From assembly GCF_000419525.1 (NCBI RefSeq), contig NZ_ATTE01000001.1:4276501-4340500 (forward strand): a DNA stretch of 64,000 nucleotides, read 5' to 3'. The notes under the pieces were generated by a model. It was not told where the DNA came from. It saw only the letters and a list, made by a program, of their open reading frames with translations, and ran no database searches. Each line of letters begins with the position of its first letter. Positions within the stretch are counted from its first letter, which is position 1. The stretch is from Leucothrix mucor DSM 2157. GTDB lineage: Bacteria > Pseudomonadota > Gammaproteobacteria > Thiotrichales > Thiotrichaceae. This document shows positions 9,952-63,873 of the stretch, in pieces. The position numbers and the translations under genes are program-made.

Positions 9952-9984
9952 ATGTACTTCGACTATTTCGCAGCGTATTGCTAA
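9952..9984 (+). CDS. Possible 10-residue leader peptide
   Basis: A short open frame (MYFDYFAAYC) starts at an ATG 5-6 nt after TAGGAG (9941-9946), a better ribosome site than that of the downstream ATPase gene. It overlaps the first operator-like inverted repeat (9961-9990) and ends just before the second. It may be a chance frame. If real, its translation would disturb the first hairpin. Confidence 0.25.
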   Translation: MYFDYFAAYC

Positions 9985-10024
9985 ATAGTCTTGACAATTC
10001 CGCAATGCACTGCGAAATTGTCAA
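9961..10024. promoter_or_regulatory. Tandem pair of inverted repeats before the first DUF4143 ATPase gene
   Basis: Two long dyads lie end to end at 9961-9990 and 9991-10024. Aligned on their arms (9961-9990 and 9993-10022) they share 22 of 30 bases. The half-site is GACWATTYCGCA, mirrored after six spacer bases. The centres are 32 bp apart, about three helical turns, so a protein could occupy both on one face. The second dyad begins with TTGACA and ends 2 bp before the ATG at 10027. Confidence 0.8.
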
Positions 10025-10026
10025 TT

Positions 10027-11145
10027 ATGAAAAGAATTCAAGAAGCACTAGTAAAGAAAGATTTAGCTCGTAAAATGGTCTTCCTGACGGGCCCAAGGCA
10101 AGTTGGGAAAACTAGTCTTGCCAAAGCCATTGCCAAAGATTACAAATCCTCGGTATATCTGAACTACGATAGCTTGGATGATCGAAGAATAATTAATGAC
10201 TCCGCTTGGCTTCCCTCGACTCAGCTTCTCATTCTTGACGAGTTGCATAAAATGCCAGAGTGGAAAAACTACCTTAAAGGCTTGTATGATACTAAGCCTG
10301 AACACCTACAGATATTAGTAACCGGAAGCGCTAGGCTCGAAACTTTTCGTCAGAGTGGCGACTCGCTGGCGGGACGCTTTTTCAGGCACCGATTAAATCC
10401 CTTATCCCTTGCTGAAATTCCTGATGCTGATGAGCACTCTCTTGAGCTATTACTTGAGCGGGGAGGCTTCCCAGAGCCGTATTTAGCGGAAAACCTCGAA
10501 GACTCAAAGCGTTGGCGTTTACAGTATATCGATGGTCTGATCCGTACCGATATTCTTGATTTTGAGCAGGTTCACGACTTTCGGGCTATTCAACTAACCC
10601 TTGAGTTACTGCAAACTCGAGTAGGGTCACCGCTTTCCTATTCGAGCCTAGCGAGGGATGTTGGCGTTTCACCGAATACCATCAAGCGTTACATTGAAAT
10701 TTTTGAAGCGCTTTACATCATATTCAGAGTAACGCCGTACCACCGTAATATTGCCCGTTCTCTGCAAAAAGACGCGAAGATTTACTTCTTTGATAACGGC
10801 ATGGTGAAAGGCGATAACGGTATTAAGTTTGAGAACCTCGTTGCGATCAGTTTACTGAAACACCTGAATGCGATCGAAGACTATCAGGGCAAGCGCACCG
10901 CTTTAAGAATGTTGCGAACTAAAGAGCAAAAAGAAATCGACTTTGTGCTGGTCGTCGATGATGAGCCGGTGCAGATGCTTGAAATTAAATTGTCCGACCC
11001 CTCAGTGAGTCCTTCACTACGCTACTTCCATGAGAAATATAAGATTCCAGCGGTGCAGCTCGTCAAAAATCTACGGCATGAGCGCTTGGATGGTGGTATA
11101 GAAGTACGGCGTGCGTTTGATTACTTAGAGCAGTTAGAGCTGTAA
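10027..11145 (+). CDS. AAA-like ATPase with DUF4143 domain (COG1373 type), copy 1
   Basis: The protein has 372 residues from the ATG at 10027. An in-frame TTG at 9991 would place the operator inside the gene and is unlikely. Walker A is GPRQVGKTS (residues 22-30), Walker B LLILDELHK, followed by a VTGSAR sensor-like motif. A winged-helix-like segment (SYSSLARDVGVSPNTIKRYI) follows, then a C-terminal DUF4143 domain with a nuclease-like EIDFVLV...MLEIK signature. The family is common in bacteria and poorly understood. There is no Shine-Dalgarno sequence before the ATG. It resembles the copy at 62581 throughout, including ELHK followed by WKNYLKG. It is not in an operon, and its role is unknown. 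Confidence 0.88.
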   Translation: MKRIQEALVKKDLARKMVFLTGPRQVGKTSLAKAIAKDYKSSVYLNYDSLDDRRIINDSAWLPSTQLLILDELHKMPEWKNYLKGLYDTKPEHLQILVTGSARLETFRQSGDSLAGRFFRHRLNPLSLAEIPDADEHSLELLLERGGFPEPYLAENLEDSKRWRLQYIDGLIRTDILDFEQVHDFRAIQLTLELLQTRVGSPLSYSSLARDVGVSPNTIKRYIEIFEALYIIFRVTPYHRNIARSLQKDAKIYFFDNGMVKGDNGIKFENLVAISLLKHLNAIEDYQGKRTALRMLRTKEQKEIDFVLVVDDEPVQMLEIKLSDPSVSPSLRYFHEKYKIPAVQLVKNLRHERLDGGIEVRRAFDYLEQLEL

Positions 11146-11156
11146 CGTATCTGCCC

Positions 11157-11891
11157 TTAACTGCCCAACACACTCCGCAAAAACTCCTGAGTCCGCGCTT
11201 TCTTAGGGTTCGAGAAAATCATTTCCGGTGGACCTTCTTCCAGAATTTCACCCTTATCCAAAAAGCACACCTTATCCGCCAATTCCCGCGCAAAGCTCAT
11301 CTCATGAGTCGCCAGTACCATGGTCATGCCTTCGCGATGCAGCTGCCGTAATACATCCAGCACTTCAGCCACTAACTCAGGATCAAGCGCTGAGGTTATC
11401 TCGTCAAACAGCATCATTTTCGGCTTCATGGCGAGCGCCCGAATCACCGCTACGCGTTGCTGCTGACCACCGGATAATTGATCTGGATAGTTATCCATGC
11501 GATCACTCAAGCCGAAGCGTTTGAACAGCTCTTCAACTTCCGGCTGCAACTCTGCGCGACTGCGTTTGTGAATGCGGCGGGGTGCCAGCATGACATTCTC
11601 AATCGCCGTCATATGTGGGAATAGGTTATAGCTTTGAAACACAATACCAATTTGCTGGCGAATCGGCTGCGGGTCTAAACCCGGTACGGAAATATCATTG
11701 CCATCCAGCAAAATTTCGCCATCGTCGATATCTTCCAGCAGATTCATACAGCGCAGCAGGGTCGATTTACCCGAGCCGGATGCGCCGATCAGGCAGACCA
11801 TTTCGCCATCGTTAATGGTGAGATTAATGCCCGAGCACACTTTGCGCTCGCCGAAGCTTTTGTGAATATTGATCAGTTGTAACTTGCTCAT
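11157..11891 (-). CDS. Polar amino acid ABC transporter ATP-binding protein
   Basis: This is a 244-residue ATPase of the HisP/GlnQ class. It has Walker [10 protein letters not shown], signature [11 protein letters not shown], Walker [14 protein letters not shown] and the switch histidine in LATHEMSFA. The DEITSALDP form of the D-loop region is typical of amino acid importers. It energises the importer encoded with it, as the last gene of a three-gene set (receptor 13547, permease 12709, ATPase 11891) with short gaps. The substrate is likely an amino acid but is not determined. Confidence 0.93.
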
Positions 11892-11896
11892 AACGC

Positions 11897-12709
11897 TTAA
11901 CTTCGTGCTTGCTGTTGCTTAGCCATTAAACGATCGGCAAAGCGGGTGGCGGGAATGGTGACGATCAGGAAGATGACCGCAGCGGCAACATAGGGCGTGA
12001 AATTGGCATACAGCGATTTATACACACCGGCCTGACGCAGAATTTCGACCGGCCCAATAAATGACAGCAGCGCCACGTCCTTTTGCAGGGCGATAAACAT
12101 ATTCATATTGGCCGGCACCACGCGGCGAATCGCTTGCGGCAACACCACAAAGCGCATGGTATCGCTGGGGGATAAACCTAAGGATTCGGCGGCGGCCCGC
12201 TGCGAGCTATGCACTGACTCAATACCTGAGCGGAAAATCTCGGCCACGTAGGCCGAATAGGTGAGAATCAGCGCTAGCGAGCCCCAAATATAAGGGCTGT
12301 TCCATGGGCGCGGCAAGCCAAGCCCCGGCACACCAAAGCCAATCAGATAAACGATTAGCACTACCGGAATTCCGCGCAACACATCGGTATACACCGCTCC
12401 AAATAAACGCAGCGGGTAGAGCGCCGGTGAGCGTGCATCGCGACACAGTGCAATGAGCAACCCGAGAATGGCAATTAGCGGCGCGCACCACAGAAAGATC
12501 ATCACATCCAACATAAACGCTTCGAGTAATGTCGGGAAGGTTTTAATGAAAATCTCAGCGTTAAAAAAGCTCTTTTTAACCGCTTCCCAGCCTGGCGCTA
12601 GTGGGACCAGAAAATAGCACAGCGCCACCACTGCCATCGTACTAATGACGGCAATGATGGTGCTGCGTTGTTGCACACGTTTCGCGTGCGCCTGTCTTAA
12701 GGTTAGCAT
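11897..12709 (-). CDS. Polar amino acid ABC transporter permease
   Basis: The protein has 270 residues with about six membrane helices and the HisM/GlnP-type signature region. The coupling motif is in [20 protein letters not shown], followed by [20 protein letters not shown]. It forms the membrane channel, probably as a homodimer since only one permease gene is present. It starts 4 bp after the receptor gene stop and ends 5 bp before the ATPase gene, so the three are surely co-transcribed. Confidence 0.92.
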
Positions 12710-12713
12710 AGGT

Positions 12714-13547
12714 CTATTTGATTAGAGGAACACTGGTTGTTTGCTGCAGCCACTCAGCTTCGATGCTGGCCAATTTGCCATCGGCGATCATGGCTTCCAG
12801 CGCTTCGTTTACACAGTTTTTCAGCGGATTGCCTTCTGCGAATAACATGCCGAACTGGTCTGGATTTTCGCTGCGCTCTGCCGGGAATTGGCCAAGTACC
12901 ACGCCGTCATCCAATACCGCTGCACCTAAATAAAGTGCGGTCGGTAAGTCGAATAATGCGGCATCGATTTGATTCGCTTTCATTGCTGCAACCACGTCAT
13001 TATTGTCGTTGTATAACAGTGGTTTGTCGCTAGGCTCGATTAACGTGTTAATCATTGGTAGGCCAGTCGTGGCAGCACTCGCGCCCCACAGTAAACCTTT
13101 TAATGATTCCAGTTCTGGCTTAGCGCCTTTTTCTTGGATTGGCTTGCGAGTCAGTACGGCCATTGCGGCAGAGTAGTAAGGGATGGAGAAATCGACGACT
13201 TTTTCGCGGTCTTCAGTGATTGAGAACTGCTGTAAGTTGAAGTCAAAATTCTTGTCGCCAGGCTGGATAGAGGCATCGAAAGAGGCCGTGGTCCATTCTA
13301 CTTTATCTTTATCAAAACCCATGCGTGCAGCTACTTCGTAAGCCACGGCAGACTCAAAGCCTTTTCCTGTCGTTGGGTCGTTATCGATCATCCAAGGGAA
13401 GTAGGATGGGTTGCCAGTAGCAATGGTTAATACGCCATCTTTCAGGGTGTTACCTGCGGCGCAACTGTCGGCCGCAAAGGCTGAACCAGTGCTTAGGGCC
13501 AGGCCTAGACAAACGGCTGCGGTGCTAATTGATGATTTTAAGAACAT
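12714..13547 (-). CDS. Polar amino acid ABC transporter substrate-binding protein
   Basis: This periplasmic receptor has 277 residues from the ATG at 13547, with a signal peptide ending near STGSAFAADS. The family 3 solute-binding fold shows in GFESAVAYEVAARMG, the FSIPYYSAAMAVLTR segment, and a late IDAALFD motif. The start at 13547 has GGAG 7 nt upstream and puts the signal peptide first. A longer in-frame GTG start at 13634, itself near an AAGGAG, would add 29 residues before the signal peptide and is unlikely. Two cysteines near the start and end of the mature protein could form a disulfide. The bound amino acid is not predictable. Confidence 0.92.
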   Translation of the reverse strand: MFLKSSISTAAVCLGLALSTGSAFAADSCAAGNTLKDGVLTIATGNPSYFPWMIDNDPTTGKGFESAVAYEVAARMGFDKDKVEWTTASFDASIQPGDKNFDFNLQQFSITEDREKVVDFSIPYYSAAMAVLTRKPIQEKGAKPELESLKGLLWGASAATTGLPMINTLIEPSDKPLLYNDNNDVVAAMKANQIDAALFDLPTALYLGAAVLDDGVVLGQFPAERSENPDQFGMLFAEGNPLKNCVNEALEAMIADGKLASIEAEWLQQTTSVPLIK

Positions 13548-13643
13548 GTGAGACTCCGAGGCTGTAGAGAACGGGATATCGTTACCGATATGGTGAAGCT
13601 TGTCCAGAAGATTGAGCTGCTCCACAAAGGCCACTTACTCCTT

Positions 13644-14318
13644 TTAGATAGATTGAGTTCGATGTTTGCGAACCACCCGAAACGTAATATTAATCCGATC
13701 CTGCCCGAGTGTCGGATGATAGTCCGCCTTAATTGGCAGCACACCATGAAAGCACAATCGCGATACGCCACCCCAAACCACCACATCACCATGCGCTAGC
13801 GGGACTTTGACCGTCTTATCCGAACGCTGCATTCCGCCAAATAAAAACATGGCTGGCACGCCCAGTGAAACCGATACAATCGGCGCACTCAAATCCTGCT
13901 CATGCCGATCCTGATGCAATGACATTTTCGAGCCAGGTGCATAGCGGTTAATCATACAGCTATCTGGATGAAATTCAGAATACCCAGCCTCACGCGCAGC
14001 CTGCTGCCCAATTTCCCGAAGTACCGCTGGCATCTCTGGCCAGTCTCTGCCGGTTTGCGGATCTTGTCTTGCATAGCGATAACCTTGCGGGCCGCTCACC
14101 CAGCCTAAATCCCCACAACACGTAATCGCTGCGGACATTGTATAGCCGCCCGGCGTTTGAATATGCCGGAAGGGCGACTGCTCTGTGACTGTCTCAATCG
14201 CTGCAATAATCTCAGGCGCTTGAGCCACCGCATATTGGCGTAGGATTAGCGCATCCTCAGCAATCGTTTCAGTCCAGGTTTCGCCATTATGGCTAAGGTC
14301 AAATAAGTCTCCATTCAT
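13644..14318 (-). CDS. alkB: Alkylated DNA repair dioxygenase AlkB
   Basis: The protein matches AlkB, which removes methyl groups from 1-methyladenine and 3-methylcytosine by Fe(II)/2-oxoglutarate oxidation. The substrate segment SPFRHIQTPGGYTMSAAIT, the NRYAPGSKMSLHQDRHEQDL iron-binding HxD, the distal histidine in CFHGVLPIKA and the RINITFR arginines for 2-oxoglutarate are all visible. I chose the ATG at 14318 because MNGDLFDL lines up with the family N-terminus. An earlier ATG at 14354 adds 12 residues and neither has a good ribosome site. It lies 96 bp upstream of the amino acid transporter genes and appears to be an independent gene. Confidence 0.93.
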   Translation of the reverse strand: MNGDLFDLSHNGETWTETIAEDALILRQYAVAQAPEIIAAIETVTEQSPFRHIQTPGGYTMSAAITCCGDLGWVSGPQGYRYARQDPQTGRDWPEMPAVLREIGQQAAREAGYSEFHPDSCMINRYAPGSKMSLHQDRHEQDLSAPIVSVSLGVPAMFLFGGMQRSDKTVKVPLAHGDVVVWGGVSRLCFHGVLPIKADYHPTLGQDRINITFRVVRKHRTQSI

Positions 14319-14462
14319 GGTTCTGTTGTAACGCATTTTATGAATAAGCGCCATTCTACAAGTAAGATGTTGTGGTCATTGTTGGCTGAGCTTGCCTGCT
14401 AATGTTGCACTGCACACTGTTTGCTCTCATACTGCTTCGTGATTATTGACCAAGGGATTATG

Positions 14463-14499
14463 GCTTGAATCATTCTGCAACTTTCGCCATGATTCGAGC
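14463..14499. promoter_or_regulatory. Inverted repeat upstream of the phosphonate/selenate-type transporter
   Basis: GCTTGAATCAT (14463-14473) and ATGATTCGAGC (14489-14499) form an 11-bp inverted repeat with one mismatch and 15 bp between the arms. It lies 48 bp before the receptor gene start, in a 192-bp intergenic region with no gene. It could be an operator for the three transport genes. Confidence 0.45.
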
Positions 14500-14546
14500 T
14501 CAAAACCTCCCCTATTTACGACTAAAGCCACGGAGCTTGAAAGATA

Positions 14547-15440
14547 ATGATGATTTCCAAACGTTCGTTTGTTAAACGTGTGTTGTTAAGTGTAATAGCT
14601 GGTAGCTTGCTGGGTGCTGCAACGGTACAGGCAGATGAGCCAAGAACTTTATTCTTCTCTGCGATTCCTGATCAGGATGAGTCTCGTTTAATGGAGCGTT
14701 TTGGCAAAGTTGCCGATTATCTGACTGAGCGTTTAGGCGTTCCGGTTAAATACGTTCCAGTAAAATCGTATGCAGCCGCAGTGACTAGTTTCCGTAATGA
14801 TCAGCTGCAACTGGCATGGTTCGGTGGTTTATCTGGCGTGCAAGCGCGCATGGTAACGCCAGGTTCTCAAGCCATTGCACAAGGTGCTGAAGACCCGGTT
14901 TTCTACTCTTACCTTATCGCTCATAGCAGCACCGGCCTGAAAGCCTCTGATGATTTCCCAAAAGAAATCGCCGGTAAGACCTTTACCTTTGGGTCTAAAG
15001 GATCTACTTCTGGCCGTTTGATGCCTGAGTACTACATCCGTAAAAACTTAGATGAAAGCCCGGATGATGCATTTAAAAGCGTTGGTTTCAGTGGTAACCA
15101 TTCCCGCACGATCGAGCTAGTTGAAAGCGGTGCGTATGAAGTGGGCGCGGTGAACTATCAAGTGTGGGACACCATGCTGGCTGAAGATAAAATCGATACC
15201 GATCAAGTGTCTGTTATCTGGAAAACACCAGCATACCCTGATTACCAGTGGACTATCCGTGGTGATGTAGATGCGAGCTGGGGTGAAGGCTTCTCTGAAA
15301 AAGTGAAAACGGCACTGCTTGAAATGGATGCGCCAGAGTTACTGGAAGCGTTCCCACGTAGCAAGTTCATCAGCGCGAGCAATGAAGACTACCTGCCGAT
15401 TGAAGAAACAGCGAAGGCGATTGGCCTGCTGGACGAGTAA
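14547..15440 (+). CDS. PhnD/selenate-type ABC transporter substrate-binding protein
   Basis: The protein (297 residues) has a signal peptide (cleavage near ATVQADE) and a PhnD-like fold. Signs include FSAIPDQDESRL near the mature start, LAWFGGLSGVQAR in the first lobe, and TFTFGSKGSTSGRLMPEYY. The SAIPD start and the TFTFGSKGSTSGRLMP form resemble the group annotated as putative selenate transporters rather than classical phosphonate binders, but I cannot settle the ligand. GGAG at 14532 sets the start. It is the first of three genes (receptor, ATPase, fused permease) that nearly abut. No C-P lyase genes are nearby. Confidence 0.85.
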   Translation: MMISKRSFVKRVLLSVIAGSLLGAATVQADEPRTLFFSAIPDQDESRLMERFGKVADYLTERLGVPVKYVPVKSYAAAVTSFRNDQLQLAWFGGLSGVQARMVTPGSQAIAQGAEDPVFYSYLIAHSSTGLKASDDFPKEIAGKTFTFGSKGSTSGRLMPEYYIRKNLDESPDDAFKSVGFSGNHSRTIELVESGAYEVGAVNYQVWDTMLAEDKIDTDQVSVIWKTPAYPDYQWTIRGDVDASWGEGFSEKVKTALLEMDAPELLEAFPRSKFISASNEDYLPIEETAKAIGLLDE

Positions 15441-15446
15441 TCAACG

Positions 15447-16112
15447 ATGAGTGCTTCGGTATTGCTGGATTTGGTCAACGCCGAAGCGCGTTATCAGGAT
15501 AAGCTCGCGTTAAGCGGCATCAATTTGCGACTGTATCGGGGCCAGAAAGTGGCCTTGGTCGGTCGCAGTGGTTCCGGTAAATCGACCCTATTGCGGCTGA
15601 TTTACGAGAAATTACCCGATAATACGGCGCTAGTGCCTCAGGATGAGGGCTTGGTGCAAACGTTGTCGGTGTATCACAATGTGTATATGGGGCGGCTGAG
15701 CCAGCACGCTGCTTTATATAATCTCGCCAACTTGGTTAAGCCATTTAAGTCACACGTTGCTGAAGTGCGCGATGTGCTTGAGCGAGTGCAGCTGACAGAT
15801 AAATGCTTTGAACCGGTTGGTCAGTTATCTGGTGGTCAACGTCAGCGTACTGCGATTGCCCGTAGCTTGTATCAAGGCGGGGAATTGCTACTGGCCGATG
15901 AGCCCGTCTCGGCAGTCGATGAGCAACAATCCCGACGCATTCTGGAAGCGCTGTGTGATGACTTTCCTTCGGTCATTATGGCACTGCATGATACGACCTT
16001 GGCAGTGGCCTATTGCGACCGAGTGATTGGTCTGCAAGATGGCAAAATCATTCTGGATCAAGCCAGCAATGAGCTGAGTGCGGCCGACCTGTCGCAACTG
16101 TATGACGACTAA
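15447..16112 (+). CDS. PhnC-like ABC transporter ATP-binding protein
   Basis: The 221-residue ATPase has Walker A GRSGSGKST, signature LSGGQRQRTAI, Walker B LLLADEPVSAVDE and the histidine in IMALHDTT. The ADEPVSAVDE form is typical of PhnC-like phosphonate or oxyanion importers. It is shorter than most PhnC proteins (about 250) because the helical region after the Q-loop is compact. It follows the receptor gene by 6 bp and overlaps the permease gene by 11 bp, which implies translational coupling. Confidence 0.88.
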   Translation: MSASVLLDLVNAEARYQDKLALSGINLRLYRGQKVALVGRSGSGKSTLLRLIYEKLPDNTALVPQDEGLVQTLSVYHNVYMGRLSQHAALYNLANLVKPFKSHVAEVRDVLERVQLTDKCFEPVGQLSGGQRQRTAIARSLYQGGELLLADEPVSAVDEQQSRRILEALCDDFPSVIMALHDTTLAVAYCDRVIGLQDGKIILDQASNELSAADLSQLYDD

Positions 16113-17589: not shown

Positions 17590-17633
17590 CTTGAAAGGTT
17601 TAGTGAAAAATCCGCTGCCTCTAGAGGGATTGG

Positions 17634-17853
17634 TCATGAAGAAGCAACCCACTCCCGCCAATACTCCACCAAATAATGCGGCAAGTTAACCAGTTCATAG
17701 CTACTACTCTGAACCAACGACACTGCCTGCCGATCAGGCAATATATTAAAAAAAGCACACTGCAACAGGTCTGACTTCCGTGGTTTTACCGACTTGTCTG
17801 GCTCCCCGAATAGTGAGCAGCTTTCGTGAGCCTCGTTGGAACCAATTTTCCAT
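17634..17853 (-). pseudogene. Remnant of a COG1373-type ATPase gene (internal deletion plus frameshift)
   Basis: Reading the minus strand from the ATG at 17853 gives MENWFQRGSRKLLTIRGARQ then VGKTT, the start and Walker A of a COG1373 ATPase. The frame then shifts near 17780. The shifted frame continues SDLLQCAFFNILPDRQ and ends ELVNLPHYLVEYWREWVASS before a TGA at 17634-17636, which looks like the tail of such a protein. About 73 codons remain of an expected 370-400, so most of the middle is gone. An open frame on the opposite strand (17780-18115) is judged to be a chance frame. The family call for the tail is less certain than for the head. Confidence 0.6.
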
Positions 17854-17881
17854 ATATTTTATATGCTTGCGACTCTTACGA

Positions 17882-17935
17882 TGTAAAAGTTATAGGGTGT
17901 TTTGTGGCGTTTTTTGTAAAATCTATAGGGTGTTT
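17882..17935. promoter_or_regulatory. Pair of 21-bp direct repeats before the ATPase remnant
   Basis: Two 21-bp units at 17882-17902 and 17915-17935 are identical at 19 positions and start 33 bp apart. Read on the strand of the remnant, each is AAACACCCTATA, two variable bases, then TTTTACA. The near unit is centred about 39 bp before the ATG. The arrangement copies the paired sites before the two intact ATPase genes in the window. Confidence 0.75.
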
Positions 17936-18090
17936 GTGCTGAGTGGTGCTAATAAAGCCCCAAATGAGCCTGCTGTAGATACGGATAACGATGCGTCGAC
18001 GTCTGACGCAATTTTGAGGCAGGGTATTAATCGTCTGAAGTGTGCCCCATGTGAGTCATCCGGAAAACCAAGCATTTTCCAATATTTATG

Positions 18091-18122
18091 TGTAAACTCA
18101 AATCCTAAATTTTAGGTTTACA
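18091..18122. promoter_or_regulatory. Nested inverted repeat before the Fic gene
   Basis: CCTAAA-t-TTTAGG (18104-18116) sits inside an outer pair, TGTAAA (18091-18096) and TTTACA (18117-18122). It ends 10 bp before the Fic ATG at 18133. It is a plausible autoregulatory operator. The ribosome site of the Fic gene is poor. The 200 bp before it (17936-18090) hold nothing else I can identify. Confidence 0.4.
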
Positions 18123-18132
18123 GGCATTCCAG

Positions 18133-19488: not shown

Positions 19489-19500
19489 AGCGAACTTAAC

Positions 19501-20115: not shown

Positions 20116-20117
20116 GA

Positions 20118-23387: not shown

Positions 23388-23481
23388 GTTTGTCTGTTGA
23401 TCATAAGTGTGTGTTTTTTGCAACAGTCTAGCACAACGCGAATCTAAAGCGAGATTACCTGCTAAATGGTGTTTTTATACA

Positions 23482-38742: not shown

Positions 38743-39588
38743 TTAGCGCGCTGCTTTCTCCGGATATTTATGTGATAAGGAGGTGCTGGCTTTAGATAAT
38801 TTCTGAGTCAGCGCTTCTTCCTGAGTCATCGCAACCGCAATGGCTAAGATATCTAAAATCACCAACTGCGATATTCGCGACTTAATCGGCGCGTAATAAT
38901 CGCTATCTTCCTGCACATCCAGTGCTAAAACGATATCCGACATTTCTGCGAGTGGCGAATGACTGGCAGTAATCGCGATAGTGGTTACGCCTGCGGCTTT
39001 GGCCAAGGTCACACTCTGCAATAAATCATCCGAAGCACCCGAGCGACTAATTGTCACGACCACCGCGCCTGGTTCTAATAGCGCTGCAGAGACATTGTGA
39101 ATGTAAGGATCGCTATAGGAAACCACCGGCGTTCCGAGTCGGAAAAACTTCTGCTGCGCATCCGCAGCGACAATGCCTGAGCCACCCTGACCATAGAATT
39201 CAATCCGCGTCGCATCCTTTAAAGCAGCCGCTGCGTGCTCTAAGGCAACGGCATCCAACTTGTTACGAGTTTCACTTAAACTAGCCATCGCGCCATCAAT
39301 AATTTTATGTCCGACCTTTAATGGCGAGTCATTCGGTGTAATATCAACGAGTAAGTGCTTGTGTTCTTTGGGGAGTGTTTGCGCCAGCTTGAGCTTAAAG
39401 TCTTTATAACCGTTAAAGCCCATCGAGCGGCAAAAACGAATAACCGTTGGTTCGCTAACGCCAATGTCACTGGATAATTGTGCTATGTGCTGATCAATTG
39501 TGAGGTTGGGATTTTGCAGTACGTATTCTGCTACCCGGCGCTCTGCTTTGCTTAGATCAGGTAATGCGAGTTCAATATGGGTCAACAT
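38743..39588 (-). CDS. hexR: HexR-type RpiR family transcriptional regulator
   Basis: The protein has 281 residues with an N-terminal RpiR-type helix-turn-helix (DIGVSEPTVIRFCRSMGFNG, about residues 45-64) and a C-terminal SIS sugar-phosphate-binding domain (about 125-255, with FYGQGGSGIVA and VTISRSGASDDLLQ). HexR represses central carbon genes in gammaproteobacteria and is released by 2-keto-3-deoxy-6-phosphogluconate. It is transcribed away from edd, and the 159-bp gap holds two HexR-like palindromes. One lies 40 bp upstream of its own start, suggesting self-control. Confidence 0.92.
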   Translation of the reverse strand: MLTHIELALPDLSKAERRVAEYVLQNPNLTIDQHIAQLSSDIGVSEPTVIRFCRSMGFNGYKDFKLKLAQTLPKEHKHLLVDITPNDSPLKVGHKIIDGAMASLSETRNKLDAVALEHAAAALKDATRIEFYGQGGSGIVAADAQQKFFRLGTPVVSYSDPYIHNVSAALLEPGAVVVTISRSGASDDLLQSVTLAKAAGVTTIAITASHSPLAEMSDIVLALDVQEDSDYYAPIKSRISQLVILDILAIAVAMTQEEALTQKLSKASTSLSHKYPEKAAR

Positions 39589-39627
39589 AATGATGGTTGC
39601 TCTATCAGTAGCCAGTGATGGTTTTTA

Positions 39628-39642
39628 AGTAATTAAATTACA
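39628..39642. promoter_or_regulatory. HexR-like operator, hexR side
   Basis: AGTAATTAAATTACA is a 14-of-15 match to the palindrome TGTAATTAAATTACA that I recall as the HexR consensus; only the first base differs. It lies 40 bp before the hexR start codon. Confidence 0.7.
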
Positions 39643-39699
39643 AAAATAACGCCTTGAAGGGTGCTAAGCGGTATCAGTGCGCTTGTGTTAGTTAGTTTA

Positions 39700-39714
39700 T
39701 GTAGTTAAACTACA
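39700..39714. promoter_or_regulatory. HexR-like operator, edd side
   Basis: TGTAGTTAAACTACA is a perfect 15-bp palindrome of the HexR type, 34 bp before the edd start codon. Its centre is 72 bp from the first box. Confidence 0.8.
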
Positions 39715-39747
39715 TAATAAATACATTATGCAGGGGAGTCAAACATC

Positions 39748-41568
39748 ATGACAACGCTAAATCCAGTGGTCAAAAAAGTAACTGACCGAATTCGTAGTCG
39801 CAGTGCAGAATCCCGCGGCCGTTATCTTGAACGGATGGAGCAGGCAAGCCATCACACCGGTCGTCATGGCTTGGGTTGTACTAACCTAGCTCATGGGCTG
39901 GCCGCCGCGCCAGCGGGCGACAAAATCATACTCCGACAGGAGCGTCCGGCCAACCTTGGTATCGTGACTTCTTATAACGACATGCTGTCGGCCCACGCGC
40001 CGTATGGCCGTTATCCCGACTTTATTAAAGAAGCTGCCCGTAAAATTGGCGCGGTTGCACAGGTTGCAGGTGCCACTCCGGCTATGTGCGATGGTGTCAC
40101 ACAGGGTGAGCCTGGCATGGAGCTGTCACTATTCAGTCGCGACCTAATCGCGATGAGTGCCGGAATTGCCTTATCTCACAACGTATTTGATGGCGCGATG
40201 TACCTTGGTATCTGCGATAAAATCGTACCGGGCTTATTGATTGGCGCACTGCGCTTTGGTCATCTGCCAGCGATTTTTGTGCCTTCTGGCCCAATGGCTA
40301 CCGGCATCAGCAATAGCGATAAAGCGAAGGTTCGCCAGCTGTATGCAGAAGGCAAAGCCGGTCGCGAAGAGTTGCTGGAATCTGAGCTAGCTGCGTATCA
40401 CAGTGAAGGAACTTGTACTTTCTACGGTACCGCCAACAGTAACCAAATGCTGATGGAAATCATGGGATTACACGTTCCGGGTTCGGCCTTTGTACCACCA
40501 CACGGCAGCTTGCGCGATGACTTAACCAATCGTGCAGTTGAGCAGTTGTTAGCCATGACGAAAAGTCGCGGTAACTACAAGCCATTGAGTGATATTATAG
40601 ACGAGCGCGCGGTTGTAAACGGCATGATCGGTTTGATGGCAACGGGTGGTTCAACTAACCACACCATCCACTTGGTCGCGATTGCACGCGCTGCGGGTAT
40701 TTTAATCGACTGGAATGACTTCAGCGAGCTGTCAGCGGTTGTGCCATTGATTGCTAAAGTGTACCCGAATGGTCAGGCTGACATTAACCAATTCCATGCC
40801 GCTGGTGGCGTGGGTGCGGTGATTCGTGAATTGCTGCGCGTTGGTTTGTTGCATGAAGATGTAGAGACCGTTAGCGGCCACGGCTTGAGCGCTTATGCTC
40901 AGGAGCCTTACCTGAATGAAGGTAAGCTGGAGTGGCGTGATTCGCCAGCGCCGGGTGATGCACTGGAGATTTTATCCACGGTTGAAGCGCCGTTCCGCGC
41001 TGAAGGTGGTATCAAATTGCTGGAAGGCAATTTGGGCCGTGCGGTAACTAAGATCTCTGCTGTGAGTGAGGATAAGTGGCTGATTGAAGCACCTTGCCGA
41101 ATCTTCGATACCCAAGAAGATGCACAGGCTGCGTTTAAAGCCGGTGAGTTGGATAAAGATGTCATTGTTGTGGTGCGCTTCCAAGGGCCAAAAGCCAATG
41201 GTATGCCTGAGCTACACAAGTTGATGCCGATGTTGGGTGTACTGCAAGACCGTGGACATCGTGTTGCCTTAGTCACTGATGGACGCTTGTCTGGCGCTTC
41301 CGGTAAAGTACCGACGGCGATTCACCTGACACCAGAGTGTAAAGCGGGTGGTGAGTTGTCTAAATTGTTGGATGGTGACGTAGTTCGCTTAGACTGCGAA
41401 CACGGAACTGTATCAGCCTTAGTTGATGCAGACATCTGGGCCGAGCGTCCTTCACATACTACGCCGTCAGTCGACTCTGGCTATGGCATGGGACGTGAAC
41501 TGTTCTCTGCCTTCCGCCACAGTGTTGGCGATGCAGAGCAGGGCGCCTGCACTTTTGATGCAGACTAA
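39748..41568 (+). CDS. edd: Phosphogluconate dehydratase
   Basis: The protein has 606 residues, the length of Edd. Family stretches include [34 protein letters not shown], the iron-sulfur region [36 protein letters not shown], and [19 protein letters not shown]. It removes water from 6-phosphogluconate to give KDPG, the first Entner-Doudoroff step, with a [4Fe-4S] cluster. Its start has AGGGGAG upstream. It is followed after 84 bp by eda and is very probably repressed by HexR at the 39700 box. Confidence 0.96.
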
Positions 41569-50922: not shown

Positions 50923-50940
50923 AAAATTCGTTGGTGAGTT

Positions 50941-53030: not shown

Positions 53031-53275
53031 GCGTTAATTTCCATTTTTTGCTTGTCGGCGGCAAGGATTATTAGACCGCTTGTTTAGCAATGTCAAAAAG
53101 AAATTTGGCAAGCGTTTGTAAAATCGCCCGAGGCGCTGTTTTGTTTGCGCTGAGACCTGCTATCTGTAATTCAGAGCCATTAACGGTCGTGCTGCGGGCA
53201 ATTAAATCAAGCTTGAATAATCCTGTGTTAATCAGCCGTTAAGGCTGCAGATGCGCAATAATCAGGAATAACAGC

Positions 53276-54304: not shown

Positions 54305-54453
54305 CTATATCTGCGAGCTGTACCACTAATTGGCCATAAGTCTAAGAGGCAGCAATAATAATGCTACCGCTGCGCGGGTCAATTTGAATTTGCTTAAGCA
54401 TTGCTCTAAGGTTGCGGTAATTATAAAAATTACACAACTTCTGAGAACTCACC

Positions 54454-58376: not shown

Positions 58377-58413
58377 TCAGGGTGGCTCATACCTTGTTTT
58401 CCGTGATAAATAC

Positions 58414-58536
58414 GTTGAATGACTGATTAGTATTATTTATTTGAATAATATTTAATACGAATGACTTGCCCTCTGGTATTTTGTGGGAATTACCCCGTAT
58501 ACTGAAATGCAGTCAACTGATTGTCAGTCATTCAAC
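58414..58536. promoter_or_regulatory. Distant 13-bp inverted repeat upstream of ABC operon
   Basis: GTTGAATGACTGA (58414-58426) and its exact complement TCAGTCATTCAAC (58524-58536) lie 97 bp apart. A CAGTCAACTG just before the right arm adds a partial further copy. They frame an AT-rich region with an imperfect dyad (58432-58460). Between them, TATACT at about 58499 is a candidate -10 element. This could be a DNA-looping operator pair for the transporter at 58604. Confidence 0.5.
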
Positions 58537-58603
58537 TGTAACAATCGCCTGATACTGTCTCCCGTCACTTAACGTTCCAACAGCTATTTCACGGAGATTC
58601 CAA

Positions 58604-59707
58604 ATGTTTAGACCCCAGAAGACATTACTATCCCTAACGATTGCAACAGCACTGTTTTCAACAGTTGCATCGGCTGCGGATCTTGCTGAGCTAGAAGCAG
58701 CGGCTAAGAAAGAAGGTATGTTAACGACCATTGCGCTGCCACACAGCTGGTGTGGATACGACGGTGTAATCGCCGGATTCAAAGCAAAATATCCAGACAT
58801 TGAAGTCAACGAACTAAACCCTGATGCAGGCTCTGCTGATGAGTTGGAAGCTATTCGCGCAAACAAAGATAACAAAGGCCCTCAAGCGCCAGACGTGATT
58901 GATGTCGGCTTCTCATTTGGTCCTGCGGCTAAAGAAGAAAACTTGCTGATGCCTTACAAGGTATCAACCTGGGATACGATTCCGGATAACGTGAAAGATG
59001 CGGACGGCTACTGGTATGGCGACTACTACGGCGTACTGTCGTTTGCGGTAAACAAAGATATTATTGATGAGTCGCCTCAGGATTGGGCGGACTTGTTAAA
59101 GCCTGAATTTGCCAATAGCGTTGCCCTGGCGGGTGATCCTCGTGCGTCTAACCAAGCGATTCTGGGCGTGTATGCGGCTGGTTTGTCAGCCGGTGCAGAG
59201 GGTGGTACAGCAGTCGGTGAAGCGGGCGTAGACTTCTTCGCAAAAATGAATAAATCCGGCAACTTTGTCCCCGTCATTGGTAAGACAGGCACCATCGCGC
59301 AGGGCGCAACGCCGATCGTTGTACAGTGGGATTACAATGCACTGTCGGGCCGCGATACGCTGAAAGGCAATCCTCCGGTTGATGTTGTGGTACCAAAATC
59401 CGGCGTTGTTGCGGGTGTGTATGTACAAGCAATCAGCGCTTATGCGCCACATCCAAATGCGGCTAAGTTGTGGATGGAGTACCTGTACTCCGATGAAGGC
59501 CAGTTGGCATGGTTGAAAGGTTATTGTCACCCAATCCGTTTCAACAATCTGGCAGCGGATAACAAAATTCCTCAGGAATTAATGGATGCATTGCCACCAG
59601 CGGCTGCTTATGAAAAAGCCGTATTCCCATCCCTTGAAGACCAAGCTGCGGCGAAAGACGTGATTGGCGCGAAGTGGGATTCCACCGTTGGAGCGAACGT
59701 TCAGTAA
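58604..59707 (+). CDS. ABC transporter substrate-binding protein (iron/polyamine/aminoethylphosphonate type)
   Basis: The protein has 367 residues with a signal peptide ending near TVASAAD, then LAELEAAAKKEGMLTTIALP. The GYWYGDYYGVLSFAVNKDII segment and VVQWDYNALSGRD match the type 2 periplasmic-binding family of ferric, thiosulfate or 2-aminoethylphosphonate receptors. The start has CGGAGATTCC upstream. No ligand can be named. It heads a four-gene transporter that has both permeases and an ATPase. Confidence 0.88.
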   Translation: MFRPQKTLLSLTIATALFSTVASAADLAELEAAAKKEGMLTTIALPHSWCGYDGVIAGFKAKYPDIEVNELNPDAGSADELEAIRANKDNKGPQAPDVIDVGFSFGPAAKEENLLMPYKVSTWDTIPDNVKDADGYWYGDYYGVLSFAVNKDIIDESPQDWADLLKPEFANSVALAGDPRASNQAILGVYAAGLSAGAEGGTAVGEAGVDFFAKMNKSGNFVPVIGKTGTIAQGATPIVVQWDYNALSGRDTLKGNPPVDVVVPKSGVVAGVYVQAISAYAPHPNAAKLWMEYLYSDEGQLAWLKGYCHPIRFNNLAADNKIPQELMDALPPAAAYEKAVFPSLEDQAAAKDVIGAKWDSTVGANVQ

Positions 59708-60592
59708 ATGAGTAATACGATCACGGCATCCCAGCCAATAAAACGCAGACGGATATCGCTGGCTTGGCTGGGTGTCGTGCCGTTTCTGATTTTTGCTTTT
59801 ATGTTCATGTTGTTACCGACATTGAACATTGTGTTTGGCGCATTTCAGAATCCGGCAGGGGAGTTTACCCTCGACAACCTGCGCAACCTCTTTGAACCCT
59901 CAATCATGGCTTCCTACTGGATCAGTATCCGGATTAGTGTCGCCTCAGCCTTTTTGGGCTGCGTGATTGGTTTCTTGATTGCGCTGGCCGTCGTTTTAGG
60001 TGGCTTACCCGCTTGGATTCGCTCGCCAATTATGACGTTTTCGGGTGTGGCCTCAAACTTTGCCGGTGTTCCGCTGGCCTTTGCGTTTCTGGCAACACTG
60101 GGTCGTTTGGGCTTGGTTACGGTTTTGTTGAAGGACTGGTTCGGCATCAATATCTACGCCATGGGCTTTAATCTCTTAAGCTTTTGGGGATTAACGCTGA
60201 CCTATCTGTTTTTTCAGATACCGCTCATGATTTTGATTATTACGCCGGCACTGGACAGTTTGAAAAAGGAATGGAAAGAAGCCGCCTCCATTCTCGGTGC
60301 CAGCAATGCGCAATACTGGCGGATGGTGGCATTACCCATTCTCTGGCCTTCGCTGCTTGGTACTTTTGCACTGTTATTTGCCAATGCCTTTGGCGCGGTG
60401 GCCACCGCTTATGCACTGACTGGCAGCTCAATGTCGATTGTGCCGATTTTACTATTTGCGCAAATCCGTGGTGACGTACTGCAAGACCCACACTTAGGCT
60501 ACGCATTAGCCTTCGGTATGATCATGATTACCGGCGTCGCTAATCTCATTTACATCTGGATGCGGTCGCGCAGTGAGCGGTGGATGAAGTGA
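59708..60592 (+). CDS. ABC transporter permease, first
   Basis: The protein has 294 residues with six membrane helices and the EAA loop EWKEAASILGASNAQYWRMV of the PotB/PhnT-like class. It starts at once after the receptor stop and overlaps the second permease start. Confidence 0.9.
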   Translation: MSNTITASQPIKRRRISLAWLGVVPFLIFAFMFMLLPTLNIVFGAFQNPAGEFTLDNLRNLFEPSIMASYWISIRISVASAFLGCVIGFLIALAVVLGGLPAWIRSPIMTFSGVASNFAGVPLAFAFLATLGRLGLVTVLLKDWFGINIYAMGFNLLSFWGLTLTYLFFQIPLMILIITPALDSLKKEWKEAASILGASNAQYWRMVALPILWPSLLGTFALLFANAFGAVATAYALTGSSMSIVPILLFAQIRGDVLQDPHLGYALAFGMIMITGVANLIYIWMRSRSERWMK

Positions 60593-61377
60593 TGCGGCAA
60601 AAGTTTTGGTCATGGCTGGCGTTAGGCTTAGGCATTCTCTATTTTGGTTTACCGCTGCTGGGCACGCTGGAGTTTTCCCTGCGCATGCGCCGTGGCGAAT
60701 ACAGTCTGGATGCCTACTGGGTCATCCTCAGCGATCCACGTTTTCAGGCGACTTTTAGTTATTCGGTGATGATGGCGCTGGCAACCATTTTGATGGGTGT
60801 GCTGCTAGTCGTGCCGACGGCTTACTGGGTGCGTTTGAAGCTGCCGCGCTGGCGTCCGGTGATTGAATTCATTACGCTACTGCCATTGGTTATTCCGCCG
60901 ATCGTTGTCGTGTTTGGTTATATCCGGCTCTATAACACCTCCTCGATACTGCCGCTAACAGGCAGTGCAATAGGGACCGATTTGTTGATGATGTTCGGCT
61001 ACACCGTGTTGGCATTGCCGTATATGTATCGCGCGGTAGACACCGGTTTGCGCAGTATTGATGTGGGCACGCTAACCGAAGCCGCCGAGAGTTTAGGCGC
61101 TAGCAAGTTCACCATTATGCGCAAAATCATTTTGCCAAATGTATTGGTGGCGGTGCTGTCCGGAGCCTTCCTGACCTTTGCCATCGTGATCGGTGAATTT
61201 GTATTGGCAGCGCTGTTAAACCGTCCGGCATTCGGACCATTTATGCAATTAATCGGCGCAAACCGTGCCTATGAACCTGCAGCATTGGCCGTGATTGCCT
61301 TTGCCATTACCTGGCTCTGCATGGGGCTGATTCAATTAGTGACACGTTTTCAGAAACACACACAACCAGAGCGCTAG
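60592..61377 (+). CDS. ABC transporter permease, second
   Basis: The protein (261 residues) has six membrane helices and the EAA loop TLTEAAESLGASKFTIMRKI. I use the ATG at 60592 (TGATG overlap with the preceding stop). An in-frame ATG at 60580 is a possible alternative and adds four residues. With the first permease it forms a heterodimeric channel. Confidence 0.9.
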   Translation: MRQKFWSWLALGLGILYFGLPLLGTLEFSLRMRRGEYSLDAYWVILSDPRFQATFSYSVMMALATILMGVLLVVPTAYWVRLKLPRWRPVIEFITLLPLVIPPIVVVFGYIRLYNTSSILPLTGSAIGTDLLMMFGYTVLALPYMYRAVDTGLRSIDVGTLTEAAESLGASKFTIMRKIILPNVLVAVLSGAFLTFAIVIGEFVLAALLNRPAFGPFMQLIGANRAYEPAALAVIAFAITWLCMGLIQLVTRFQKHTQPER

Positions 61378-61382
61378 TGAGT

Positions 61383-62447
61383 ATGGGATTTCTTGAAATT
61401 AAGGGCCTGCAAAAGGATTTTGGTGATAACCGAGTCGTCGATGACTTCAATTTGGATGTCACGCGTGGTGAGTTCATCTCGTTCTTAGGCCCCAGTGGTT
61501 GTGGTAAAACGACCGTACTGCGCATGATTGCCGGATTTGAAACGCCTACGCAGGGCCAAATTCATATCGACGGGCAAGACGTGGTCAACCTGAAACCGAA
61601 TCAGCGCAATATCGGCATGGTGTTTCAGTCTTACGCACTGTTTCCAAATATGACCGTAGCGCAGAACGTGGCCTTTGGTCTAAAGGTTGCCGGCAAAAGT
61701 AAAGCTGAAACCAATGAGACGGTTGCTGAAATGCTGGCAATGATTCGTTTGGAAGAGCTGGGTTCTCGTTATCCTTATCAGTTATCGGGTGGACAGCAGC
61801 AGCGGATTGCCTTGGCGCGTGCGCTGGCGGTAAAGCCTAAGCTGTTGTTATTGGATGAGCCGCTCTCCGCTCTGGATGCCAAAATTCGGGTATCGCTGCG
61901 TGAAGAGATTCGCTCAATTCAGCAAAAGCTGGGCATCACCACGATTTTCGTCACCCACGATCAGGAAGAGGCATTGTCGATGTCTGACCGGATTGTGGTG
62001 GTTAATGCCGGAAAGGCTGATCAAACCGGTACGCCGTTTGAGATTTATAATAAGCCTAGTACTCGCTTTGTGGCCTCTTTTGTGGGAACCATTAATGTGC
62101 TGACTGGCACCGTGAGCGATGCGGCCAAAGGCGTGGTTGAGCTTAATGGCGAAGTGTTGTCGCTTGGTCAAAACTTAGCTAACCATAGCAATGGCGATAG
62201 CATTTCACTGGCGTTACGGCCGGAAGTGGTGTCTTTAGGCGCTGCGCCCAATAAGCCGATACAGCTGAAAGGGATTGTGCAGCAAGTAGGGTTCTTGGGG
62301 TCGGTTATTCGTGTGCAGATCGCGATTGGCGATAATCTGTTATCGCTGGATAGTTTCAATCAGCCATCCGTGCCACCGCCAGTGGTTGGTGAGCAGGCTA
62401 CGGTTTCGTTTGCGGCTGATGATTTGCTGGCTTTAGAAGGCGAATAG
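61383..62447 (+). CDS. ABC transporter ATP-binding protein (PotA/FbpC-like)
   Basis: The ATPase (354 residues) has Walker A GPSGCGKTT, signature [11 protein letters not shown], Walker B LLLLDEPLSALDA, the histidine in IFVTHDQEEAL, and a C-terminal TOBE domain (about 270-350). It starts at ATG 61383; a GTG at 61377 that overlaps the preceding stop is also possible. The substrate class is that of the receptor at 58604. Confidence 0.92.
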   Translation: MGFLEIKGLQKDFGDNRVVDDFNLDVTRGEFISFLGPSGCGKTTVLRMIAGFETPTQGQIHIDGQDVVNLKPNQRNIGMVFQSYALFPNMTVAQNVAFGLKVAGKSKAETNETVAEMLAMIRLEELGSRYPYQLSGGQQQRIALARALAVKPKLLLLDEPLSALDAKIRVSLREEIRSIQQKLGITTIFVTHDQEEALSMSDRIVVVNAGKADQTGTPFEIYNKPSTRFVASFVGTINVLTGTVSDAAKGVVELNGEVLSLGQNLANHSNGDSISLALRPEVVSLGAAPNKPIQLKGIVQQVGFLGSVIRVQIAIGDNLLSLDSFNQPSVPPPVVGEQATVSFAADDLLALEGE

Positions 62448-62580
62448 CTTTCTGCTAGGTGTTCTCAGCTATTCAAGACTTGGGCGCAGGTCATCTGGCC
62501 CATTGGAGTTTTCAGCATTAAGTGATAGCGACGGTGTATACGTTTAGCTATCAAGAGTAGTGGCGAGTGTTTGTGAAGGT

Positions 62581-63798
62581 TTACACCAAACACATCAATA
62601 AAGTCTCAGCCGGTACCTTAACCGGTTGTTTAATCGCAAAACAGTCCGCCTCAACATACGGCATATCCAGCCCCACCTGAAATGCATATTCCGCGCCGGT
62701 TTTCTCCTGAAACCATTGCAAATGCTTACTCAATGCTGCCTTTCCTGAGCTTTTTACCTCAATCAACATCCAGGGTTTATTATTTTTGCTAACTAGGAAG
62801 TCGACTTCTTTCTGATCTTTGGTTCTTAAATAGTGAAGCTGATAATCACCCCAGCCACTGTCCGTCCACCAATGAACCGCTTTGAGCAAATGGCTGGCAA
62901 TCAGATTTTCATTACGCGCGCCAATATCTTGCACCTGAGACCAATCCCAAAGATACACTTTAGGCTCTTTACGCAAAGCAGTAGTGATATTTTCAAACCA
63001 AGGACGCACCCGAAAGGCGTAATAAAAGCTTTCCAATAGCGTCATCCAGCGCCTAACCGTATCCACACTAACACTCAATTGCTTTGCTAGGGTACTGTAG
63101 CGGATTACCTGTCCTGACTGATCACGGAGTAGGCTGGCCAAGACATCCAGCTGTGCAATGTCCTGCACCTGATTCATGTCCCGAATATCTTCGTAAATAA
63201 GCTGTTGCTGGCGTAATTGCTGCCAGCGGTTATAGAAACGCGTATCAGCTTTTACAAACGGCTCGGGAAATCCGCCAAATTTAAGCAGTTGCTCCAAGGC
63301 TTGGCTATCTGGTTTTTGTGGCATCTGCAATAAGACATCCCGGTCAAAGTCCGCACTCACCTCGCGCAAGCTTAGTGGGTGCATACGATAGTGAAAATAT
63401 CGACCCATAAGGCTATCGCCACCTTTGCGAAAGGTATCCATTCTGGCGCTTTCGGTCACCAATATCGCCAGCTCTTTTTCATAAACATCGAAAAAGCCTT
63501 TCAGATAGTTTTTCCAGTCCTTAAATTTATGCAGCTCATCAAAAGCGACCAAACTGCGTTCACTACGCAACTCCTGAAGTCCCAGCTGATTGATTAATTC
63601 GGAGTCGATCGTATTGCTCACACTCTCTAAAATCCATTGGCGGTGTTGACGGTTATCCCAGTTGAAATAATGCCCTTTGGCGTCTGTAATGGTATGCGCG
63701 AGCGTTGTTTTGCCAACTTGTCTGGGGCCAGACACAAATAGCATTTGTCGCTGCTCCAGCAAATCGGTTTTTATGGTGTCGGTATAGAAGCGATGCAT
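62581..63798 (-). CDS. AAA-like ATPase with DUF4143 domain (COG1373 type), copy 2
   Basis: The protein has 405 residues. Walker A is GPRQVGKTT (residues 24-32), Walker B LVAFDELHK, then VTESARMDTF, a winged-helix-like YSTLAKQLSVSVDTVRRWMT, and the C-terminal nuclease-like EVDFLVS...MLIEVK. It resembles the copy at 10027 in length and motifs but is clearly distinct in sequence. It lies downstream of a broken ATPase fragment and convergent with the ABC transporter. The ribosome site is weak. Two TTACGA-type palindromes lie just upstream. Confidence 0.88.
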   Translation of the reverse strand: MHRFYTDTIKTDLLEQRQMLFVSGPRQVGKTTLAHTITDAKGHYFNWDNRQHRQWILESVSNTIDSELINQLGLQELRSERSLVAFDELHKFKDWKNYLKGFFDVYEKELAILVTESARMDTFRKGGDSLMGRYFHYRMHPLSLREVSADFDRDVLLQMPQKPDSQALEQLLKFGGFPEPFVKADTRFYNRWQQLRQQQLIYEDIRDMNQVQDIAQLDVLASLLRDQSGQVIRYSTLAKQLSVSVDTVRRWMTLLESFYYAFRVRPWFENITTALRKEPKVYLWDWSQVQDIGARNENLIASHLLKAVHWWTDSGWGDYQLHYLRTKDQKEVDFLVSKNNKPWMLIEVKSSGKAALSKHLQWFQEKTGAEYAFQVGLDMPYVEADCFAIKQPVKVPAETLLMCLV

Positions 63799-63823
63799 AA
63801 TTTTGACCAGTTGTTTCTAATTA

Positions 63824-63873
63824 TTTTACGACGAATCGTAAAAAAAGAAAGATTATTTTACGATGCGTCGTAA
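63824..63873. promoter_or_regulatory. Tandem palindromes before the second DUF4143 ATPase gene
   Basis: TTTTACGA-cgaa-TCGTAAAA (63824-63843) and TTACGA-tgcg-TCGTAA (63858-63873) have centres 32 bp apart. On the gene strand both continue into TCGTAAAATAAT, so they also align as direct repeats (18 of 22 bases equal). They lie 26 and 60 bp before the ATG at 63798. The core differs from that at 9961. Confidence 0.8.

Follow-up and report, generated by a model that had tools for sequence, protein, structure and literature searches.

Paired sites before three ATPase loci

The stretch of DNA analysed here, 64,000 nucleotides from the 5.19-Mb genome of Leucothrix mucor DSM 2157 (the window; positions are counted from its first letter), carries two intact genes and the remnant of a third for ATPases of the DUF4143/COG1373 type, and each of the three is preceded by a pair of closely similar sites spaced 32 or 33 bp apart. 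Pairs at 32 bp are not the only arrangement of such upstream sites in this family, which has two others, and the observation extends beyond the window; the sites are probably private operators from which each encoded protein represses its own gene.

The first intact gene (10027..11145, plus strand; 372 aa) was identified by Pfam, by the PADLOC model PDC-S01, by alignments A1 and A2, and by an AlphaFold2 model. Upstream of it, on the same strand, lie two operator-like dyads, a 30-bp imperfect inverted repeat at 9961..9990 (GACTATTTCGCAGCGTATTGCTAAATAGTC) and a second imperfect dyad at 9993..10022 (GACAATTCCGCAATGCACTGCGAAATTGTC), which follow each other at a lag of 32 bp and are identical at 22 of 30 positions; the second starts within a −35-like TTGACA and ends 4 bp short of the ATG. 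The other intact gene (62581..63798, minus strand; 405 aa; AAA_14 and DUF4143 in Pfam, PDC-S01) is preceded on its strand by the operator-like sites 63852..63873 (TTACGACGCATCGTAAAATAAT, read 63873-63852) and 63820..63841 (TTACGATTCGTCGTAAAATAAT, read 63841-63820), again at a lag of 32 bp. The core of these sites is a 16-bp dyad, and they agree at 19 of 22 positions, not at 18 as counted in the first-pass annotation of this DNA. The upstream one overlaps the spacer and the −10 element of a promoter-like TTGACT-16-TAAAAT (63882-63855), a match that is within chance (one found in a consensus scan versus a shuffle mean of 0.7). At both intact loci, none of 100 dinucleotide shuffles equalled the observed repeat or dyad score (the floor of p being 0.01).

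What is left of the third gene is the N-terminus with the P-loop (17740..17871, minus strand), recognized by tblastn through 45–58% identity across 33–44 residues with the genes L010, L154, and L155, its closest relatives. Its start had been placed at 17853; similarity to intact relatives begins further upstream, at about 17871. Two repeats precede it on the minus strand, the first at 17915..17935 (AAACACCCTATAGATTTTACA, starting at 17935) and the second, 33 bp downstream, at 17882..17902 (AAACACCCTATAACTTTTACA, starting at 17902), with 19 of 21 positions identical. Within the clade of the decayed gene, L010, L154, and L155 likewise have repeats at 33 bp while L159 and L063 have them at 32, four of the five being weak (scores 10–11). 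Thus, the spacings of 32, 32, and 33 bp, the dyad character of the sites at the intact loci, and the remaining within-pair matches given in the first-pass annotation were all reproduced.

Both intact genes encode proteins with AAA_14 followed by DUF4143, above the curated Pfam cut-offs, and match PDC-S01 over residues 3–348 of 372 and 6–373 of 405 (E 7.3e-58 and 7.3e-55, respectively). In the parts of the sources consulted, PDC-S01 is described as an ATPase fused to a member of the PD-(D/E)XK group and as ranking fourth in abundance among the defences of all prokaryotes, most such candidates still awaiting validation (PMC12988326), and it is counted among the most abundant candidate defences (PMC13356809); the same parts make no mention of operators, promoters, or self-regulation of PDC-S01. 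A search of the literature on DUF4143/COG1373/PDC-S01 genes, with subscription papers largely outside its scope, found no account of operators or control.

For the protein encoded at 10027, the predicted layout is AAA_14 (residues 15–131), a helical part, a winged helix (about 185–237), and a PD-(D/E)XK-like nuclease (about 250–346), the limits of the last two having been read by eye from predicted secondary structure. Residues E269, D305, E319, and K321 are invariant in alignments of 11 and of 30 sequences, so that the E...D...ExK signature is kept, and the predicted alpha-beta-beta-beta-alpha-beta core order appears, by eye, to fit such a nuclease. The AlphaFold2 model (pLDDT 91.8, from the 30-row alignment) has as its top fold match by E-value in the PDB the Aeropyrum Orc1 bound to DNA (E 2.2e-7, TM 0.35), followed by RuvB, clamp-loader, Orc, and STAND proteins, with query TM-scores of 0.22–0.44 among the 50 matches listed; judged from the model, the protein is of the same AAA class as these and has no close solved relative.

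Excess of upstream repeats and dyads in the family

Family genes were collected with a profile (A1) built from the proteins of the Leucothrix genome itself. Set 1, drawn from relatives of this genome, other Pseudomonadota, and many phyla, and consisting in part of the best 80 of 539 relatives ranked by likeness to the window protein, comprised 224 genes; 221 were scored, and clustering at 60% identity left 117 of 119 clusters represented. Set 2 (60 genes, 57 3′ flanks) came from viral contigs, plasmids, and further genomes, and 205 control genes were taken from 15 stretches of 20 kb of the window genome. Open reading frames (ORFs) were dropped if shorter than 120 aa, if they shared the same first 150 residues, or if the upstream stretch was shorter than 180 bases, as were profile matches that began after position 20 or were without a P-loop or start codon. 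The scored stretch ran from 170 bases before the start to 10 bases after it, the start being set by profile position, which may place the region wrongly by some tens of bases; the score was that of the best ungapped direct repeat (lags 18–80) and of the best inverted repeat, compared with 100 dinucleotide shuffles, and it was called significant if none of these reached it.

By this measure, 66 of 117 genes of set 1 have a significant repeat or dyad upstream, versus 13 of 114 of their 3′ flanks and 7 of the 205 controls; in set 2, the figures are 31 of 60 genes versus 10 of 57 3′ flanks. Strong repeats at a lag of 32 (score at least 12) precede 20 of the 117 nonredundant genes, where shuffles predict 0.08, and at this threshold the lag occurs in none of the control genes, in one of 214 3′ flanks of set 1, and in none of the 57 of set 2. 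The excess of paired repeats that the first-pass annotation had proposed to look for among other family members therefore exists. Among the 38 genes of set 1 with a repeat of this strength, the best lag is 32 in 20 and 23 in five; lags 20, 22, and 44 are found in two each, and seven further lags in one each. Mean repeat scores peak at lags of 22/23, 32, and 44, that is, near whole helical turns. Upstream words are also enriched: in a count over 177 genes, TTGAC occurs in 59 (30.8 expected), and TCTTGAC, CCTTGCA, and AATAGTC in 17–19 each (1.6–2.0 expected); three dyads, those of L059, L062, and L083, are centred on AGTC-TTGACT.

The Leucothrix genome has 15 DUF4143 matches, 13 of them above the cut-off; 12 family genes passed the filters for genes; L009, L011, and L012 did not. 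Nine of the 12 have a significant upstream repeat or dyad, and 32-bp pairs are confined to the two window loci. A single large dyad lies close to the start of L001, L003, L004, and L005, and arrays of 22-bp repeats precede L002 and L007. Weak repeats were seen at 33 bp for L010 (p 0.06) and at 34 bp for L013 (p 0.04); L008 has no upstream repeat or dyad, and the repeat scan found nothing upstream of L011. L006 has a smaller dyad close to its start (ATATTTAAAG..TTTAAATAT). Its significant inverted repeat is long, spans −153 to −80, and scores 18, with GGCGGTCAGGTATTAAC in its arms; unlike the other operators and at some distance from the start, it may not be an operator at all.

Three arrangements and the protein tree

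Three arrangements recur: tandem dyads 32 bp apart (centre to centre), direct repeats at 22/23 bp, and one large dyad. The first is found in the clade of the window genes, with members in Omnitrophota, Bacteriovorax, Desulfobulbaceae, Verrucomicrobia, Spirochaetes, and a Rhabdochlamydia plasmid, and in two further clades; its recurrent form ahead of the ATG is GACTATT...AATAGTC-TTGACTATT...AATAGTC. The 22/23-bp repeats often read TTTACAATTRGACG and come, by eye, in up to about six copies, and the single dyads are often ATCCTTGCAAATT...AATTTGCAAGGAT, some of them ending at or over the start codon. While the three window pairs are indeed unrelated in sequence, as first described, the family as a whole is not without a common vocabulary, since two dialects, GACTATT/AGTCTTGACT and CCTTGCAA/TTTACA, recur across it.

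On a tree of 172 proteins of 320–560 aa, out of the 177 of the word count, genes were assigned by threshold to class 32 (21 rows), class 22 (20), dyad (67), or none (64). All 21 rows of class 32 fall into three clades that together hold 46 of the 172 rows (P 1.4e-14, the clades having been picked post hoc), and class 22 has all but four of its 20 rows in one clade of 24. The number of changes on the tree, compared with the minimum of 200 label shuffles, is 14 versus 16 for class 32, 8 versus 16 for class 22, and 42 versus 43 for the dyads. In the window's clade, the 23 of 37 genes below the threshold still average 6.65 at lag 32, compared with 3.4–4.3 at the lags from 28 to 36. The spacings of 32 and 22 bp thus go with clades of the protein, and the single rule of 32–33 bp put forward for the window does not hold for the family: class 32 is confined to three clades, and other clades have 22/23 bp or one large dyad.

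Private sites, copies, and transfer

The operator of the 10027 gene, searched with up to three mismatches, occurs in the genome at its own locus only; that of the 63798 gene occurs at its own locus and at three other places, each with three mismatches. Apart from these three matches, the two window operators are private, in line with the locus specificity first claimed for them.

Of 31 copy pairs that are at least 90% identical, five lose similarity at both ends near the unit, at −42 to −117 upstream and at −30 to +18 relative to the stop; L005 and L172, for example, are 94% identical from −42 to +18. Fourteen pairs break on one side, six on the left near the outer edge of the operator and eight on the right near the stop codon, and 12 of the 31 keep both flanks. 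At the place where G040, G048, and G055 carry the gene, genome G007 (L263) has the same neighbours with the site uninterrupted, and a joined query of 302 bases matches this site over its full length at 95% identity; in G059, the flanks are split. In G040 (L188), 31 bases of the left-hand gene's 3′ end (883–913) recur, 29 of them identical, at the corresponding end of the ATPase gene (2140–2170). Thus operator and gene came in together at least once; given the duplicated stretch, insertion in G040 is favoured over precise loss in G007. No clean empty site was found for the 10027 gene, G003 keeping the right-hand gene with other genes adjoining it.

A counterpart of the operator at the 3′ end is absent as a rule: 84 of 90 sampled genes (of 215 available) score below 13 when operator and 3′ region are compared, and the remaining six, some of which have other causes, compare with one of 90 re-paired controls. 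A transposon with terminal inverted repeats can be set aside on these figures. L101, on an Akkermansiaceae contig, is the exception and the only clear case with the dyad at both ends among those examined: the dyad CGGAAAAT..ATTTTCCGA at 2880–2915, before the ATPase gene (2935–4116), recurs at 4124–4159, 7 bases past the stop.

Paralogue pairs within one genome at 40–90% identity number 43, of which just four reach at least 55%. Genomes with 15–27 DUF4143 matches (Leucothrix itself, G003, G040, and G048) rarely hold two close copies, an observation to be read with the sampling in mind, which favours best matches; mutual exclusion of close copies within a genome is possible.

Related families and known systems

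PDC-S27 (ATPase_2, PF01637, with DUF234) comprises related single-gene ATPase-nucleases similar to PDC-S01. Of 11 PF01637 hits scored, the seven strongest family matches (L375–L381, five of which are close kin) all have an inverted repeat shortly before the start (score at least 10, p 0.01–0.05); L375 and L376 match PDC-S27, and these two and L379 carry ATPase_2 with DUF234. Their sites differ from those of PDC-S01 in sequence and spacing, being tandem at 55 bp in L375 and single dyads in the rest. Among the other four hits, an inverted repeat was found for L385 (p 0.02) and, weakly, for L383 (p 0.08), but not for L388 or L389. Strong direct repeats also precede Fic genes of the relatives, at lags of 34, 40–42, and 71–72; the starts of Fic and ATPase_2 genes were set by simpler rules, and the 32-bp geometry is absent from the strong repeats of those inspected. 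The loci of this Fic observation are L292, L296, L290, L304, and L299, together with L278, L293, and L297. Considered together, the Fic and PDC-S27 sites suggest that self-sites at the promoter may be common more widely among mobile genes that stand alone.

In autorepressed toxin-antitoxin operons, the product of the operon binds palindromes over its own promoter, and such operons are mobile, with many paralogues per genome. DUF4143 genes resemble them in having palindromes at their own promoter, in being mobile, and in their many paralogues per genome; unlike the two-gene operons, they place ATPase, DNA-binding, and nuclease parts in one protein, and no partner gene is evident. None appeared in the ORF list at the window loci, and none was seen by eye in 11 of 12 fetched plasmid records, the twelfth (H2) being a family gene annotated in two pieces. 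In all, 374 PLSDB plasmids match the 10027 protein, and five of the 12 fetched records have a gene for a toxin-antitoxin, AbiE, Fic, or an integrase no more than about 1.2 kb away.

Elsewhere in the window, at 39588–39748, divergent genes for an RpiR/SIS regulator and a dehydratase (ILVD/EDD) share dyads similar to TTATGTAGTTTAACTACATAA, 72 bp apart; these look like a HexR box, and the whole resembles an ordinary arrangement of regulator and target.

Probable autorepression and its alternatives

A geometry that follows the protein clade while the sequence varies fits an encoded oligomer that reads the sites, and it is considered likely that each protein of the ATPase/winged-helix/PD-(D/E)XK type represses itself from its own private operator. 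The unit would be a single gene for an AAA+ ATPase with winged helix and PD-(D/E)XK-like nuclease, with the operator at its promoter or start codon. The protein would bind there as a dimer or higher oligomer with the distance between subunits fixed within a clade, matching tandem dyads at 32 bp, direct repeats at 22/23 bp, or a single large dyad, which would be why the spacing is inherited with the clade; the base sequence of the operator would drift or be replaced, which would allow many paralogues to coexist in one cell without cross-talk. Binding over the −35/−10 or start region would repress the gene until a trigger, for example invading DNA or a nucleotide state, releases the protein, whereupon expression would rise and the nuclease be freed. 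A possible hint at such a trigger comes from Thermus thermophilus HB27, where TT_P0211 (AAA_14 and DUF4143) was 6.6-fold up with plasmid DNA in the Argonaute-positive strain, while no gene changed more than 4-fold upon deletion of Argonaute (PMC4406477). L365, from a plasmid record of Thermus HB8 and not identified as TT_P0211, has no significant upstream repeat, which leaves the Thermus expression datum a lead only.

Several results weigh against autorepression, or against its reach. No significant repeat or dyad was found for 51 of the 117 genes of set 1 or for six of 12 plasmid members (Bandiella, Thermus, Sphingobium, Shinella, and two of Mesorhizobium). Set 1 is biased to lag 32, since 15 of the 22 lag-32 genes (of 221) come from the 80 best-ranked loci and two of the remaining seven lie in the window; in set 2 (score at least 11), lag 32 occurs in two of 60 genes and 22/23 in ten, so that lag 32 belongs to certain clades and does not characterise the family. 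The tree, made with FastTree, leaves 58 of 169 inner branches open, and its support for inherited geometry appears strong for class 22, modest for class 32, and marginal for the dyads. A consensus scan found no full sigma-70 promoter upstream of the 10027 gene. Eleven of 31 Fic genes also have a significant upstream repeat or dyad; Fic, which is unrelated, is not a clean negative control, and such sites alone do not single out the DUF4143 family. The winged-helix segment named in the first-pass annotation is indeed predicted, yet operator similarity grows with overall protein identity and has no specific tie to it (standardised weights: AAA 0.18, middle 0.06, winged helix 0.15, nuclease 0.21), and the covariation test of operator and winged helix is, on these sequences, negative or uninformative. 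The first-pass observation is confirmed and generalised, its interpretation supported in part.

Two further points bear at the same time on an alternative in which the dyads act in RNA, as 5′-leader hairpins that govern how the ATPase mRNA is translated or terminated. The leaders of the two window genes fold far better than their shuffles (z −5.1 and −4.2), and the arms of the dyads change symmetrically in three of seven clusters (9, 2, and 0, where four, four, and three pairs, respectively, differ on both sides) and not in clusters 26, 14, 22, and 35; symmetric changes fit autorepression but equally a hairpin. Many dyads, moreover, end a few bases from the ATG. However, the 22/23-bp class consists of direct repeats, the repeat scores peak near whole helical turns as described above, and at several loci promoter-like hexamers seem, by eye, to lie inside the dyad, in which case the 5′ arm would stay untranscribed. 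Control through RNA is accordingly regarded as unlikely.

The sites might also be ends or recognition points for gene movement, the nuclease/ATPase inserting or copying the unit at its own upstream site. The five of 31 near-identical pairs that share operator and gene between different flanks, the 14 that break on one flank, and the uninterrupted site of G007 opposite the filled ones of G040, G048, and G055, with the 31-bp host repeat in G040, speak for movement; capture by other machinery would give the same picture, a matching 3′-end site is missing as a rule, both flanks are common to the two copies in 12 of the 31 pairs, and only a single site showed a long target repeat, all of which makes this a very unlikely explanation.

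More improbable still is that the sites serve a host regulator and not the encoded protein. They do lie at promoters and starts, and a host repressor could silence such genes, but the window operators are found at one locus each in 5.19 Mb (barring the three 3-mismatch matches), and the spacing tracks the clade of the encoded protein across many phyla. Archaeal Orc1/Cdc6 with their origin boxes and the initiators of iteron plasmids combine AAA+ and winged helix with repeated sites beside the gene, a likeness that the model of the 10027 protein and its top match to Aeropyrum Orc1 may extend to DUF4143, and 22-bp iteron-like arrays do occur; a role as replication or partition initiator is nevertheless scarcely credible in view of the low TM-score, the conserved nuclease-like active site, the private sites, and the 15 to 27 matches scattered along the chromosome in several relatives.

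Autorepression from private operators may, in turn, be part of something larger, although this is a tentative and rather doubtful proposal: PDC-S01 and PDC-S27 could be self-addressed units, in which a private DNA address parks and silences an ATPase-nuclease and loss of the address frees the nuclease. The sequence of the address would then evolve fast, like a lock-and-key code, while the geometry would be fixed by the oligomer of the clade, and the address might be lost through exclusion of a second copy or through an invader that titrates or degrades it.

Implications

What is new here is not autorepression as such; it is putative private operators across a family, with a geometry bound to the clade. 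Should the protein encoded by each gene turn out to be its repressor, this would be a case of an AAA+ nuclease that regulates its own gene in a sequence-specific way, and if the self-addressed reading holds, the operator would at once switch off a single-gene defence or addiction element and act as its sensor. The upstream sites may serve as bait DNA for complexes, in reporters that reveal triggers, and, as coupled protein and DNA specificities, in working out a recognition code. They give a direct handle on the control of a family that is very common, uncharacterised, and thought to be antiviral.

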